DNA from: a virus | Reading direction: 5' to 3' (one strand) | IMG/VR virus record: IMGVR_UViG_3300025759_000339 | Coordinates: 1-34,023 of that record | DNA: 34,023 bases | In this document: positions 20,451 to 32,339 of the stretch, piece after piece | Layout of the letters: the number at the start of each line of letters is the position of its first letter | Numbering within the stretch: position 1 is the stretch's first letter | Translations under genes and position numbers: made by a program | The notes under the pieces: generated by a model | The model's database searches: none | Told to the model about the DNA's origin: nothing | The model's input: the letters and a program-made list of their open reading frames with translations, nothing else

Positions 20451-20532
20451 GTGTATATCTCTACTTTTTCGCTAGAGCAACGAGATCTTAATGTATTTAG
20501 TGTATCCAGACTTCAATAGGCTCTGGCAACCC

Positions 20533-20603
20533 GAATCCGTTAAGGATTCTGTGGAACGCCCATACCGACTCCTGCATTGCAGGCTAGACGCTCCGCAGAA
20601 CCC
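20533..20603 (-). promoter_or_regulatory. Candidate bistable RNA element ahead of the scaffold gene
   Basis: On the minus strand GGGTTCTGCGGA (20592-20603) pairs with TCCACAGAATCC (20544-20555) and extends by four more pairs (20556-20559 with 20588-20591); the only mismatch is one C-A, with G-U wobbles on this strand. An inner hairpin CCTGC/GCAGG lies at 20571-20583. An alternative stem GAATCC/GGATTC (20533-20538 with 20544-20549) uses half of the first stem, so the two folds compete. It starts directly after the stop codon of the 111-aa gene. No U-run follows. Confidence 0.5.
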
Positions 20604-21212: not shown

Positions 21213-21233
21213 ATTGTTTCCTTAGTTAGTAAA

Positions 21234-21284
21234 AAAGAGCCGATGGCATTACTGCCGTCAGCTCTTTGTAGCTAGATTATACCA
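21234..21284 (-). promoter_or_regulatory. Promoter-hairpin leader upstream of the 86-aa gene; terminator-like
   Basis: Minus strand: TGGTATAAT (21276-21284), then a hairpin starting almost at the expected +1. Its stem is AAAGAGC/GCTCTTT (21261-21267 with 21234-21240) plus a 7-bp inner stem GACGGCA/TGCCATC around a GTAA loop. A run of six T follows, then TTAGTTAG, with ATG at 21212. By itself this hairpin is a textbook intrinsic terminator, yet it sits between promoter and gene. Confidence 0.7.
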
Positions 21285-21306
21285 CAGAATTACAACTCTA
21301 TGTAGT

Positions 21307-23684: not shown

Positions 23685-25121
23685 TTAGTAAGTAAATGAA
23701 GTGCGGAATTGCTTTGCTTTCTTTCTTTTACGTGTATCTTTGTGATCTATTTCAAAAAACATACGCATCATCATGGCATCTGAAAGGTCTGGTGATCTAC
23801 CAATATGTTCTTTGATAGTGTCTTTTGGCATCACCATGAGCTTTCCATCTTTATCAAAGTCTTTTGCTTTTACTTGCTCTAGTTCCTCAATAAGCATCTC
23901 TTTATAGTTGTCCATCTTTTCGGCTTTGACGGAAATACTGATTTTGTGATGGTTTATGTAATCGGCCAGCTTGTAGTAGCACTGACTCTTTAGGTTGTTA
24001 AAGTTTTGTTTTACCTTCTGGTCTTCTAGTGGGCGTGAGTTGTTAATAAAACCTTTGACTCCGTAGAGCATGTCTACAACACCACCACCAACACCATCTT
24101 CATCAATAAGCACATGAGAGTAAGGAACACCGTATTGATTGATTTTTTCTTTGATTTTGTCTTTTGTCACAACCGTACTAGATTTACTCAACACTTCCAT
24201 ATCAATCAGTTTTAGCCCTTGCCATACCATAATGACAGTTTTATCTTCCCCAAAACGTGCAATGTCGGCTGTTATGTAAAACTCTTTTGAGTCATCTATC
24301 GTGTTGGTGAATAGATCTAGGATATATTCGTAGATAATAAGCGCGCTTGGGTCGTCGTCGTATTCCCAGTTACCAAACATCAAGCGTTCTCTATCTGCGG
24401 CGTTGCTGATAGCCGATAGTTTTGACTTGTAATCCTTTGCGGTGAATGGGTTATCGTTGTACAGGGCCTGAATAAATGCGTAGTTTACGTCTTCATCACC
24501 AAAGGTTTCAGTCCATGTAATCATCTTATCGTTATGCATGTCGCCATGTTCTTTTGCTTTCTTGTAAAACGTGCGATATGTCCAGTTTTTACTTGGGTTT
24601 CCTGTGACAAAGAATTTACCTAATAGGTTATATTCCTTGTTTTTCCAACGACCAATACGTGATTTAAGAATGTCGTATGCCTTAAAACCACTGTCTGAAC
24701 CTGATCCCTCACCAGCTTCTTCAATCCAACCGTGTGTGTAGAGTGTTGAACCAAACCGTGCATAGTCTGGATCTGATGGCTGATATGCAGTTGCAAGGAG
24801 ACTTATCGTGCTTCCATTGCTGAATGTAATGACTTTGTTTTGGCCATTAAACTCCCATGTACCCTGTGGCACTTTGTGATGTTGTGACACCTCGTTAAAA
24901 GAAACAAGGACAGATTCCTTGAGTGTTGATATTTCACGTCGTGCAACAAAGAGTCGTACACCGGGATACTGTAATGCGGTTACTAAAAACCATTCACAAC
25001 CAAGCCATGTTTTTCCACCACCAGCCGCACCACCGTAGAATATAAAGGTTGTTTCATCGTCAAAGAGCGTTTGATACGCAACGTGTTGCTTCGCTGTTGG
25101 TTTAATCGTTATCTCGCTCAT
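23685..25121 (-). CDS. terL: Terminase large subunit (packaging ATPase-nuclease), 478 aa
   Basis: Motor that cuts and drives phage DNA into the procapsid. ATPase: Walker A GGAAGGGKT at residues 30-38 (K37, T38), Walker B with acidic pair in HGWIEEAGEG (E134/E135), coupling motif VTGNP at 172-176. RNase H-like nuclease: D286 in ITADIARFGEDKTV, acidic cluster D340/D342 in LIDEDGVGGG, and SPDLSDAM near 443-450. Length is normal for the family. It overlaps the zinc-ribbon gene by 20 nt and precedes the 106-aa gene and portal. Confidence 0.95.
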   Translation of the reverse strand: MSEITIKPTAKQHVAYQTLFDDETTFIFYGGAAGGGKTWLGCEWFLVTALQYPGVRLFVARREISTLKESVLVSFNEVSQHHKVPQGTWEFNGQNKVITFSNGSTISLLATAYQPSDPDYARFGSTLYTHGWIEEAGEGSGSDSGFKAYDILKSRIGRWKNKEYNLLGKFFVTGNPSKNWTYRTFYKKAKEHGDMHNDKMITWTETFGDEDVNYAFIQALYNDNPFTAKDYKSKLSAISNAADRERLMFGNWEYDDDPSALIIYEYILDLFTNTIDDSKEFYITADIARFGEDKTVIMVWQGLKLIDMEVLSKSSTVVTKDKIKEKINQYGVPYSHVLIDEDGVGGGVVDMLYGVKGFINNSRPLEDQKVKQNFNNLKSQCYYKLADYINHHKISISVKAEKMDNYKEMLIEELEQVKAKDFDKDGKLMVMPKDTIKEHIGRSPDLSDAMMMRMFFEIDHKDTRKRKKAKQFRTSFTY

Positions 25122-26258: not shown

Positions 26259-28108
<1,850 letters not shown>

Positions 28109-28123: not shown

Positions 28124-28357
28124 CGATTCGTTTGCACTTTCATTAAGTTCGTTTTCTAATTCGTCACGAAATTCCTCAAAAAAGGCAAGCTCTGTTGAGA
28201 GTGCGTGGAGGCGTGAACGAAGAAAGGTGTTGTACAACCGTGCATTGCGAAGCAAGAGTTTTCGGAGCTGTCTTTTTTGTCGTGCATCAAGTGTCTTGCC
28301 CGTTGACCGTTCTATGAATAAATAAATATCTTTCCTGCAATGTGCTCCTGGTTTCAT
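28121..28357 (-). CDS. Hypothetical charged helical protein, 78 aa
   Basis: Strongly charged helical protein with KTLDARQKRQLRKLLLRN near the middle and an acidic C-terminal half (FFEEFRDELENELNES). Not recognised. Its ATG overlaps the RusA stop by 4 nt (ATGA), so it belongs to the same unit, and its TGA stop is part of the next promoter. Possible partner of the recombination proteins or an inhibitor; nothing decides. Confidence 0.5.
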   Translation of the reverse strand: MKPGAHCRKDIYLFIERSTGKTLDARQKRQLRKLLLRNARLYNTFLRSRLHALSTELAFFEEFRDELENELNESANES

Positions 28358-28695
28358 ATGATGTGAATTGTTACTTCATCGCTTGTACCTTTCTGTGTGT
28401 ACGCACCTGTAAAGGACACGTGTTGATAGCTGTCATCTTCAATGATGCCATTCTTGATCAATCCGTCTTCTAGGCATTTTGCCATAAACATACAATTGGT
28501 GCTGTCTAATGGTTTCGTCTTAAATCTGAATATGTAGGTTATCTCTACGGGGTACTCGGTGACCTTGTGTCCTTTGTGTTCTATTAAGGACATATGATAT
28601 AGGTCGGCTATCTTCTTTCTCTGCGCCCAATGTGTTCCAGCATATATCTTGTTGGTTGATACTTTCTCTGGAATTGGAATGGTGATACTGATCAT
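28354..28695 (-). CDS. rusA: RusA-family Holliday junction resolvase, 113 aa
   Basis: Endonuclease that resolves four-way DNA junctions during phage recombination or replication. The family layout is visible: N15 in the N-terminal strand region (STNKIYAG), D64 and N67 in KPLDSTN, K73 plus D77 in AKCLEDGLIKNG, and D87/D88 in IIEDDSYQHV. Length about 113-120 aa matches RusA. It overlaps its neighbours on both sides by ATGA, directly after the NinB-like gene, a common phage pair. Confidence 0.85.
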   Translation of the reverse strand: MISITIPIPEKVSTNKIYAGTHWAQRKKIADLYHMSLIEHKGHKVTEYPVEITYIFRFKTKPLDSTNCMFMAKCLEDGLIKNGIIEDDSYQHVSFTGAYTQKGTSDEVTIHII

Positions 28696-29087
28696 ACAAG
28701 GAATCCTGCATCTTTTGGATCTGGTAATGGTACGCCAGTCAGAGCCGAAATCTTGTCTAGGTATTCTCCAAAGGCAATCTTATCTAGTTCTCGTGTGGAA
28801 CTTGTAACAGCAAAGGTTTCTCCGTACAGTTGTTTTACGGTTACTGGTAAGAATTTTCTTTTGAATATGCTATGGAGTTCGTTTCTATCGTTTCCTGTTT
28901 CTGCTTCTACCAATCCGAGATACAACCAATAGTAGTTATTCTGTGAAAGTGATCGTACTGGTTTCTGACGTTCTATTCTGTACGTTGCACCTTCGTTGTT
29001 TTTTACATCTTCTAGAAATCTTGCTTTGTTTGCGTCACTTCCGAGAGAAAGTTGACCTTGTTTTGCGACAGCTCTAAATACTGACAT
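28692..29087 (-). CDS. NinB/Orf-like recombination protein, 131 aa
   Basis: Shows KPVRSLSQNNYYWLYLGLVE at 42-61, the R-S-x-x-Q-N-x-x-x-W pattern typical of NinB (lambda Orf) proteins that help load recombinase on DNA, then helices with ELHSIFKRKF and FGEYLDKISALTGVPLPDP. Immediate linkage to RusA supports a recombination role. Related phage proteins of other names share the same motif, so the exact subgroup is uncertain. It is expressed from the divergent promoter at 29094-29102; the ATG is 6 nt after the -10. Confidence 0.6.
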   Translation of the reverse strand: MSVFRAVAKQGQLSLGSDANKARFLEDVKNNEGATYRIERQKPVRSLSQNNYYWLYLGLVEAETGNDRNELHSIFKRKFLPVTVKQLYGETFAVTSSTRELDKIAFGEYLDKISALTGVPLPDPKDAGFLV

Positions 29088-29093
29088 GGGGAT

Positions 29094-29127
29094 ATTTTAC
29101 CACAAACACATTAGTTCGTGGTAAAAT
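29094..29127. promoter_or_regulatory. Divergent palindromic promoter/operator
   Basis: ATTTTACCACAAAC (29094-29107), spacer ACATTA, GTTCGTGGTAAAAT (29114-29127): 13 of 14 positions are symmetric. Leftward it reads TGGTAAAAT, then 6 nt to the NinB-like ATG (leaderless). Rightward it reads TGGTAAAAT toward the initiator gene with expected +1 near 29134. Each -35 region would overlap the other side, so the two promoters would interfere or be bound together by a repressor. Confidence 0.7.
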
Positions 29128-29197
29128 GTACTGGTACTGGTGAATTGACTCATAGCCAGTATTTTACTAAAGTACCAATCCATAACTAAGAGCCTAT

Positions 29198-29261
29198 AGG
29201 CGAGGAGGGGGGTAAAACACCCACGCATGACGGTACTCATGCGAAGTCACCCTCCTCACCT
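29198..29261 (+). ncRNA. Three-way junction RNA in the initiator leader
   Basis: AGGCGAGGAGGG (29198-29209) pairs with CCCTCCTCACCT (29250-29261), one C-A mismatch. Between them sit two hairpins: GGGT/ACCC (29210-29213 with 29219-29222, AAAAC loop) and CGCATGA/TCATGCG (29224-29230 with 29237-29243, CGGTAC loop). One arm contains GAGGAGG, Shine-Dalgarno-like; the other is anti-Shine-Dalgarno-like. It lies about 20 nt before the initiator ATG. The mismatch is a G-U wobble on the minus strand, so the strand is not certain. Confidence 0.5.
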
Positions 29262-29282
29262 GTGGGCTTTTATATTACCTGC

Positions 29283-30035
29283 ATGTCAAAAATAAATTTC
29301 AAAAAAGATCGGATACCTTTCACACAAGTAGCAAACGAATTACTAAACTATAAAAACCTGTCGTTTAAAGCAAAAGGTTTATACGCCTACCTGTACTCAA
29401 AACCAGATGGTTGGGATTTCTCAATAGACAGAATTGCAAAGGACACATCAGAAGGTCGCAGGAGTATCAATTCTGGACTCCAGGAACTAGAACGAGAAGG
29501 GTTCTTAATCCGAGAACGTCAAAGTACTGGTAGGGTAGCATATTTACTAAAAAGCCAAATGCTCAAAATGGACATGGGGAACGAAAAGCCAAATGTCCAA
29601 AACAGCAAAGTGCTAAAACAGCAAAGTGCTAAAACGGACACGGTAAGTAATAAAGATAATAAAGCAATAAAGAGTAATAGTAATAAAGATACTGGCGAAG
29701 CTGTCACTTCGCATGGTTCAAAGGTATCTAAGAAAGAAAAATACTCTGTTCTTGGTGCAGACATTTTAAAGTTGTTTGAAAACGTCAACCCAGCTTGCCG
29801 CAAAATGTACAACAACAAAACACAACGAAAAGCATGCGATAATCTCATTGAGCTTTATGGTTTTGAAACTGTGGAAAAAGTTATCGCAATTTTACCAAAA
29901 ACAAATACAATGAGTTATGTACCAACAATCACAACACCTCTACAGTTAGAGCAGAAATGGGTATCACTAGAGTCTGCACTTAAAAAGAAAAAAGAAACAT
30001 TACAAGACAAAAAAGTAAAAGTTGCATTTGTATGA
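29283..30035 (+). CDS. Winged-helix replication initiator candidate (origin-binding), 250 aa
   Basis: Start taken at ATG 29283 (MSKINFKKDR); a GTG at 29262 would add 7 residues but lies in the hairpin. Residues 12-90 are the winged-helix of phage replisome organisers/DnaD-like initiators: FTQVANELLNYKNLSFKAKG, LYSKPDGWDFSIDRIAKDTS, INSGLQELEREGFLIRER. Residues ~90-155 are a charged linker whose DNA carries iterons and an A-rich tract. The C-terminal region (about 155-225) is helical and may bind a helicase loader; no DnaD domain was confirmed. First gene of the rightward operon; the downstream gene overlaps by ATGA. Confidence 0.65.
   Translation: MSKINFKKDRIPFTQVANELLNYKNLSFKAKGLYAYLYSKPDGWDFSIDRIAKDTSEGRRSINSGLQELEREGFLIRERQSTGRVAYLLKSQMLKMDMGNEKPNVQNSKVLKQQSAKTDTVSNKDNKAIKSNSNKDTGEAVTSHGSKVSKKEKYSVLGADILKLFENVNPACRKMYNNKTQRKACDNLIELYGFETVEKVIAILPKTNTMSYVPTITTPLQLEQKWVSLESALKKKKETLQDKKVKVAFV
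29550..29691. other. Candidate replication origin with iterons and A-rich tract, inside the initiator gene
   Basis: Four related 15-16 bp units: AAAAGCCAAATGCTC (29550-29564), AAAAGCCAAATGTCC (29584-29598) and two exact copies of AAAACAGCAAAGTGCT (29599-29614, 29615-29630). The core AGCA-AAG-TGCT is dyad-symmetric. GGACAT (29570-29575) also mirrors ATGTCC (29593-29598). Next comes a purine-rich, AT-rich tract (29643-29691) with four AATAAAG repeats. Lambda has the same order inside gene O: iterons with dyad symmetry, then an A-rich region. Confidence 0.6.
29599..29630 (+). repeat. Two exact tandem 16-bp iterons
   Basis: AAAACAGCAAAGTGCT repeated twice without gap, each with AGCA/TGCT dyad symmetry. 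16 is not a multiple of 3, so the unit is read in different frames and encodes different amino acids in the two copies: the repeat must be kept at DNA level, as expected for binding sites. Confidence 0.85.
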
Positions 30036-30367
30036 AAATCAAACTTATTCTCGGATATAGAAAAGATCAAGAACACACCATTGATGCACATGAGGCACAT
30101 AAAGCGTACTACTTGTTTTTGAATCCAGACGAGCGTGGCATATTCTCAACTGGACTTGCTGTACGTGGTCAAGACATTCAAGCAATAGAGCCAGACTATG
30201 TTGCCACAATGGGTTGGAACACAGGTCACCAACTGACTTCGGAAGACTGGAACGAAATTAAACAACAAGGAGTTGATAAAAAAATAAAACAATTACTCCT
30301 GGAGGCAAAAGAGATTGCACTATCTGGAAAACAAGATCTGCTCAAACAACCACTACAACTAAATTAG
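30032..30367 (+). CDS. Hypothetical protein, 111 aa
   Basis: Begins MKIKLILGYRKDQE, followed by a helix with DAHEAHKAYYLFLN and a middle with GLAVRGQDIQAIEPDYVATMGW, then a long charged C-terminal helix (KKIKQLLLEAKEIAL). Not recognised. Its ATG overlaps the initiator stop (ATGA), so it is translationally coupled to replication initiation. Confidence 0.55.
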   Translation: MKIKLILGYRKDQEHTIDAHEAHKAYYLFLNPDERGIFSTGLAVRGQDIQAIEPDYVATMGWNTGHQLTSEDWNEIKQQGVDKKIKQLLLEAKEIALSGKQDLLKQPLQLN

Positions 30368-30375
30368 TTTAAAAA

Positions 30376-30663
30376 ATGACTATAAAAAAAGACAACAAAC
30401 GAATGCGACCTTGTAAGTATTGCAAAAAGATCAAATACATACACGTTTCTGTGTGCTACCAATGTCAGTACAAAAAAGCTATTGAGAACATAGCAGAAAA
30501 AGAAAATCTTTATATGACTGATGATCATAAAATATTACAACGATGTGCATGCGGACATGGCTTTCTCTCTAATGGAAACGCAACGATGTGTAAATGGTGT
30601 TGCCCAGAAAAGAAAGATACCGAGTACCATTGCTCACGGTACAGTGTATGTATGAAGATATAG
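30376..30663 (+). CDS. Cysteine-rich zinc-ribbon protein, 95 aa
   Basis: Two zinc-binding sets: C13/C16 with C27/C30 (CKYC, CYQC), and C57/C59 (CACG) with C72/C75 (CKWC). Extra cysteines at 76, 86 and 92. No nuclease motif such as HNH was found. Small double zinc-ribbon proteins in phage early regions often bind DNA or RNA polymerase, but this is inference. The 8-nt gap to the previous gene and A-rich start context fit the operon. Confidence 0.6.
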   Translation: MTIKKDNKRMRPCKYCKKIKYIHVSVCYQCQYKKAIENIAEKENLYMTDDHKILQRCACGHGFLSNGNATMCKWCCPEKKDTEYHCSRYSVCMKI

Positions 30664-30742
30664 TTGTGGATAACTTAGACTATACAATTACAAACCATGT
30701 GCTACACTTATACAAGTTCCTTTCAAACATATCTACTTTGAT

Positions 30743-31009
30743 GGAAGCACACGTAAACCAATTGGCTTTCACAGCTCTTTAGTTGGCAATAACCTATGTG
30801 TGCTGCCACCAGAGTAGATAGAAACGTGGACATATGAGCGTTTGTAAGTACAACAATTTTAAATGTACGTTACTTGATAACTTACATTATGCTCTCCCCA
30901 ACCAATGGTACGAGCGATTACTGTGGTTGTAACGAAAACCGACATTAACTGGGGTAATACGCTACTCATAGGTACTGTGTGTCCACGTTCCTGTCTGGTC
31001 TGACAGGGA
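30743..31009 (+). ncRNA. Large candidate structured RNA in the only gene-free stretch >300 nt
   Basis: The 30664-31035 gap has no convincing gene. Stems seen: GG-A-AGCACAC (30743-30752) with GTGTGCT-G-CC (30798-30807), 9 pairs around one mismatch; AACGTGGACA (30823-30832) with TGTCCACGTT (30980-30989), 10 perfect pairs; next to it TATGAG (30833-30838) with CTCATA (30965-30970); GTAAGTAC with GTAC-G-TTAC nearby; CCCC(A) near 30896 with (T)GGGG near 30950, around ACCA/TGGT; last hairpin CCTGTC/GACAGG (30990-30995, 31002-31007). Wobbles are G-U on the plus strand, favouring that strand. No known RNA class was recognised; no tRNA. Confidence 0.45.
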
Positions 31010-31035
31010 TTAGAAATGATTAAGAGCTATACACT

Positions 31036-31631: not shown

Positions 31632-32339
31632 ATGTTTGAATTTGACGAGAAAACACACGTATACAAGCTAGATGGAAAGCGCCTCACAGGCGTCACAACC
31701 ATTCTTGGAGTGATTGCAAAGCCAGCACTTATTGGCTGGGCTGCAAACAAAGCCGTAGATTACATCAAGGATCACATATACGACAACGATATTGATGCGA
31801 TGGTGACAAAAATTCTACCAGAAGCACGGAAAGCCCATACCAAAATTAAAGACACGGCTGCTGACTACGGTACACATGTACACGATCAGATTGAAAACTA
31901 CTGTAAAGGTAAAAAGGTTGTATCAATCAATGAGCAAGTAGATAAAAGTGTTCAGTCATTCATTGATTGGTTTGAACGACAAAACGCAAAAGTGATTGAA
32001 AGTGAAAAGCGCTTGTATTCAAAAGAACATTGGTATGCAGGAACAGTTGACCTTGTCTTAGAAATAGACGGCAAGCATTGGATTGCAGACATCAAGACAA
32101 GTAATGGTATCTATAACACCTACTTCTTACAGATGGCTGGATACCAAATTGCGCTAGAGGAAACAGAAAACTACGACATTGAGGGTCACATGATCATTCA
32201 ATTAACAAAAACAGGAAAGGTGCGTGTAGAGAGAAGTTATGGTGTTGAGAAGAATAAAGAAGCATTTTTAGCAGCACTCACGCTCTACCGAACATTACAA
32301 GACCTTGATAAACAATTAAAACCGACATGGAACAAGTAA
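31632..32339 (+). CDS. RecB/Cas4-type PD-(D/E)XK nuclease, 235 aa
   Basis: Probable DNA exonuclease for recombination or degradation of host DNA. Start chosen at ATG 31632 (MFEFDEKTHVYKLDGKRLTG) since upstream in-frame sequence overlaps the 131-aa gene. Motifs: H82/H84 in YGTHVHDQIEN, D140 in AGTVDLVLEI, D153-x-K155 in WIADIKTSNG, and Q167-x-x-x-Y171 in QMAGYQIA, the QxxxY motif of the RecB-type nuclease family. No iron-sulphur cysteine cluster is visible (only C91), unlike Cas4. It is followed by the SSB-like gene, with 13 nt overlap. Confidence 0.8.
   Translation: MFEFDEKTHVYKLDGKRLTGVTTILGVIAKPALIGWAANKAVDYIKDHIYDNDIDAMVTKILPEARKAHTKIKDTAADYGTHVHDQIENYCKGKKVVSINEQVDKSVQSFIDWFERQNAKVIESEKRLYSKEHWYAGTVDLVLEIDGKHWIADIKTSNGIYNTYFLQMAGYQIALEETENYDIEGHMIIQLTKTGKVRVERSYGVEKNKEAFLAALTLYRTLQDLDKQLKPTWNK

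Follow-up and report, generated by a model that had tools for sequence, protein, structure and literature searches.

Lambda, SPP1, and lactococcal phages are known to carry a replication origin within the gene for the initiator itself. In lambda, the origin sits in the middle of gene O, where the O protein binds iterons, and two iterons together with the AT tract are enough for unwinding (PMC7466680). In SPP1, the oriL repeats bound by gp38 lie in gene 38 itself, next to an AT-rich unwinding element, and this phage has two origins approximately 13 kb apart (PMC6316719). The ORF13 protein of TP901-1 and the ORF16 protein of Tuc2009 each bind direct repeats located in the gene that encodes them, and these repeats constitute the origin, as experiments have shown for TP901-1 (PMC8965321). 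We analyzed a window comprising an entire IMG/VR virus record (IMGVR_UViG_3300025759_000339; 34,023 bases, classed as linear), in which positions 29550-29692 very probably form a theta-type replication origin inside the linker-coding part of the phage's own initiator gene.

By its sequence, the source of this record is a tailed phage; no exact terminal repeat was found in the 34,023 bases. The window carries a terminase large subunit gene (23685-25121), NinB-like and RusA-like genes (28.3-29.1 kb), and an exonuclease gene (31632-32339). Genes point leftward to the left of 29.09 kb and rightward to the right of 29.28 kb, and the first rightward gene is that of the initiator. The cumulative GC skew reaches its minimum at 28177 and the AT skew at 29064, and this is also where the genes change direction; the GC skew was set aside because it is confounded by this change. 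Neither a helicase nor a primase was recognized among the window genes searched, a subset of all genes, which fits reliance on the host. A 111-aa gene on the plus strand (30032-30367, from the ORF list) follows directly, its start overlapping the initiator stop in an ATGA. This gene received no Pfam assignment above the cut-off and no PHROG match, and the ORF downstream of the initiator in one related phage (L006) resembles its product, as judged by eye. The 111-aa protein is a possible partner of the initiator.

The initiator gene (29283-30035, plus strand; 250 aa) was assigned on the basis of Pfam HTH_36 and PHROG matches. Residues 25-75 match the HTH_36 winged helix (PF13730, E 3.1e-9; approximately 29355-29507), which is followed on the same strand by a linker-coding part (approximately 29550-29730) and a C-terminal helical domain (approximately 29730-30026). 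Among PHROG families, the protein matches those of replication initiation proteins, DnaD-like helicase loaders, and O-like proteins (best 1.3e-15; O-like profile 1.5e-9). The AlphaFold2 model is confident only for the C-terminal helical domain, the linker and winged helix being of low confidence; a PDB fold search with it was uninformative because of the low confidence of the winged helix, and a viral fold search led to a 229-aa protein, A0A5Q2W837, with 46% identity. Phage_rep_O (PF04492), present in lambda O and in the related phage L066, was absent from the window initiator in the Pfam search, and its C-terminal 100 aa gave no match to the DnaD-type domain (DnaB_2). Profile comparison of the C-terminal domain with that of lambda O also yielded no significant match: hhalign aligned the expected region, but with an E of 0.11 and a probability of 0.5%. 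By its N-terminal domain and the available tests, the initiator therefore appears to group with HTH_36-type initiators and not with the lambda O family.

Since HTH_36 occupies residues 25-75, the repeats come after the winged helix, in agreement with the first-pass annotation, which had placed them in the linker part of a winged-helix initiator gene. That annotation had further described four related iterons, including two identical 16-bp tandem copies. The identical pair was confirmed at 29604-29635, where iterons 3 and 4 (29604-29619 and 29620-29635, plus strand) both read AGCAAAGTGCTAAAAC, with an AGCA-AAG-TGCT dyad. The other two are diverged iteron-like copies on the same strand, which match the exact repeat at only 12 of 16 positions (AGCCAAATGCTCAAAA, 29553-29568, with an AGC-N5-GCT dyad) and 10 of 16 positions (AGCCAAATGTCCAAAA, 29587-29602). 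When the upstream stretch is shuffled, 4-10% of the shuffles yield a match of 12/16, and the two upstream copies pair with each other at 17 of 19 positions (29550/29584). Their kinship to the exact pair is marginal, and the solid copies number two; no further copy of AGCAAAGTGCTAAAAC within 3 mismatches occurs in the window. The pair is followed by the A-rich tract on the plus strand, found as it had been described: 49 nt at 29644-29692 (29 A, 11 T, 7 G, and 2 C; 40/49 A/T) with four AATAAAG motifs, at 29649, 29658, 29666, and 29682. By composition, this tract is a candidate DNA unwinding element; with 37 A/T in 45 nt, it ranks among the window's most AT-rich stretches of that length, a value reached at about 0.1% of positions. 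Relaxed DnaA boxes number 3 in the window, against an estimated 2 or so expected. A 13-nt inverted match between 29238 and 29703 was dismissed as being, by our estimate, at chance level.

As in the lambda origin in O, a DNA-binding domain, iterons, an AT-rich tract, and a C-terminal domain follow one another in the same order. However, the lambda iterons measure 18 bp and those of the window 16 bp, lambda O carries Phage_rep_O and the window initiator does not, the C-terminal domains are not detectably related, and no recognizable P gene follows the window initiator, the next gene being the 111-aa gene without a family match. The first-pass description of the origin as lambda-type thus stands for the order of parts and fails for the protein family. 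SPP1 oriL in gene 38 likewise combines direct repeats with an AT-rich unwinding element inside the initiator gene. SPP1 differs in having a helicase and a helicase loader of its own as well as a second origin; no second iteron site was found in the window. TP901-1 and Tuc2009 (Rep2009) resemble the window in having a gene for an HTH-type replisome organizer with internal direct repeats; the TP901-1 Rep is a tblastn relative of the window initiator (3e-8), and its repeat also lies directly after the winged helix. Unlike the window initiator, it has a DnaD-type C-terminal domain (DnaB_2), and its repeat differs in sequence and in period (15 by our own statistic, against 16).

This shared placement bears on the possibility that the repeats are operator sites that let the initiator repress its own gene or set the timing of its expression, with the true origin elsewhere. 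Winged-helix proteins encoded beside their own gene commonly autoregulate, and a structured leader and a weak promoter-like match are present just upstream of the initiator. Yet the repeats lie approximately 320 bp inside the gene, away from any promoter, and run into the A-rich tract, the window has no other copy within 3 mismatches, and the equivalent placement is the origin in TP901-1, SPP1 oriL, and lambda. We therefore regard an operator function with a distant origin as improbable; binding of the repeats by the initiator could, for its part, serve both operator and origin roles.

A period of 16 does not divide by 3, so that translation passes through the two exact copies in different frames and yields a non-repetitive protein. 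The repeat is therefore kept at the DNA level, as had been proposed, and its score of 21 was reached by none of 2000 synonymous-codon shuffles in which the protein was held fixed (maximum 17) and by none of 2000 codon-order shuffles (maximum 15). The same statistic recovered the annotated iterons in lambda O, which served as a control. Tandem Repeats Finder ranked the array at 29599-29635 (period 16, 100% match) first in the window with a score of 74, the next reaching 52, and across 43 coding stretches of the window the repeat excess was greatest in the initiator gene (z 8.9; next 2.5). We extended the synonymous-shuffle ranking to the window and 67 loci with a related terminase, which together gave 641 ORFs of at least 150 aa. 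Where the period was a multiple of 3, the repeats were mostly ordinary protein repeats, and the four strongest with other periods belonged to L006, a gene of L099, the window initiator, and L002. The L099 gene is initiator-like in layout only, its sole Pfam match being DUF6291.

Searching IMG/VR with the initiator itself returned no close relative, and the exact iteron DNA had 0 matches there; no near relative with the same iterons was found. Relatives of the exonuclease were only distant. A related terminase was carried by 62 contigs and 5 genome contigs, with up to 53% identity over the best segment; terminase relatives occur in contigs labeled Microgenomatus, Prevotellaceae, Rikenellaceae, and unnamed bacterium. 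Initiator genes were found in L006, in L002/L003, and, by way of a weak HTH_36 match, in L066 (the same as L038); L064, with a further weak HTH_36 match, is a candidate only. Most other terminase relatives have no HTH_36 match and therefore provide no test of an in-gene origin. The three phages compared (terminase approximately 44-51% identical) carry different repeats between the winged helix and the C-terminal part. In L006, an 11-bp array of GGACAACAAAC with approximately 3.5 copies is followed by A/T-rich sequence; L002 has an 11-bp array after the winged helix that runs into A/T-rich sequence; and L066 has a 24-bp array in four copies after the winged helix, followed by A/T-rich sequence. 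The L066 array exceeds its shuffles but constitutes weaker evidence, as its period is a multiple of 3 and it is in frame. The initiator of L066 (= L038) is a Phage_rep_O protein (E 1.4e-19), which, set against HTH_36 in the window, suggests that DNA-binding domains may be swapped. The first-pass annotation had pointed to related phages as a check, and at the same place all three possess repeats and A/T-rich sequence, the sequences themselves being different.

These comparisons leave little room for a recent, neutral slippage duplication in a fast-evolving linker. Linkers tolerate repeats and the exact copies number only two, but strong out-of-frame repeats concentrate in initiator genes among the 641 ORFs, and unrelated repeats recur at the same place in relatives, which is not expected of random slippage; such an accident is accordingly quite improbable.

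Initiator genes of named phages show a similar pattern. In nearly all of about 20 such genes, from phages of Lactococcus, Lactobacillus, Planktothrix, Gordonia, Arthrobacter, Alistipes, Vibrio, and others, the best in-gene repeat lies just after the winged helix (approximately residues 98-174), and these repeats often run into AT-rich sequence. Synonymous shuffles were clearly beaten in about half of the genes, for example those of PaV-LD (14 bp, three copies), LL-H, and Clawz. The TP901-1 repeat beats its shuffles weakly (12 of 150 reach its score), and in Pointis, REQ2, and 1961P the in-gene repeat was not above synonymous shuffles. This survey strengthens the case for iterons after the winged helix as a general trait of phage HTH_36 initiators.

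An origin within the initiator gene, as first proposed, is by far the best reading of 29550-29692, because the repeat is out of frame, lies between domains, and runs into an A-rich tract, and because the same place holds different repeats in relatives and the experimentally shown origin of TP901-1. By analogy with the described systems, the winged-helix domain of the initiator would bind the 16-bp dyad repeats, and several bound copies would distort the DNA such that the adjacent A-rich tract opens. The C-terminal domain might then bring the host replicative helicase to the melted DNA, either alone or together with a partner; a host enzyme is assumed because no helicase was recognized among the window genes tested. 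The analysis provides a candidate origin for a phage without a cultured host. Moreover, the synonymous-shuffle test on periods that are not multiples of 3 singles out initiator genes among hundreds of ORFs and could serve to locate origins in uncultivated phages at scale.

Immediately before the initiator start, a branched leader hairpin followed by a short U-run (TTTTATATT) occupies 29187-29272 on the plus strand (-55 kcal/mol, z -6.7). The gene to its left points away, so the hairpin cannot end that gene's transcript, and no Rfam family was assigned to it at curated thresholds. Strong hairpins just before the initiator were also found in L002, L006, and L066/L038, that of L006 on the assumption of a downstream start. 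A purely topological search for three-way-junction hairpins returned no more matches than shuffles; shape alone is thus no evidence, and the folds were judged instead by their strength relative to the same stretch. In a sliding scan, no hairpin was stronger than the one before the initiator in the window, L006, or L038, and in L002 it came second; other genes of the compared phages also have strong upstream hairpins. A possible promoter of the initiator operon, TTGACT-17-TAAAGT (29145-29173, plus strand), is a weak consensus match and the only sigma-70-like match in 28600-30600. Shuffles give more such matches, so it is no evidence by itself.

A leader or attenuator is the simplest guess for the hairpin. 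That it or the gap at 30664-31035 is the main origin, with the iterons accessory, is very improbable: each folds much more stably than its shuffles (z -6.7 and -4.35), relatives also have strong hairpins ahead of the initiator, and the two origins of SPP1, approximately 13 kb apart (PMC6316719), offer a precedent, but neither element has iterons with an AT-rich tract, and the U-run after the hairpin is more like that of a leader or attenuator. With the iteron region retained as the probable origin, we offer as a tentative and rather doubtful suggestion that the replication module of this lineage is a fixed unit of branched leader hairpin, initiator gene, and internal origin. The hairpin might then be a conserved attenuator or antitermination leader controlling initiator supply, and swaps might exchange the DNA-binding domain jointly with the iterons under a constant layout.

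Several further features of the window were observed. No obvious gene occupies the 372-nt gap at 30664-31035, whose fold (-107 kcal/mol, z -4.35) includes a long-range stem. The gap matched no Rfam family and no DNA of named phages, had no exact match in IMG/VR, and is a candidate structured RNA. Further strong hairpins occur in intergenic gaps of the leftward arm, at 20451-20603 and 21213-21306, and are possibly terminators. A Shine-Dalgarno-like motif precedes only 2 of 40 gene starts. Of 42 starts, 8 have the motif AACTAA at most 25 nt upstream, where 0.5 would be expected, an excess for which stop codons of upstream genes may account in part. The phage also encodes a divergent chaperonin of the GroEL/cpn60 family at 26259-27800 (PF00118, 6.5e-33).
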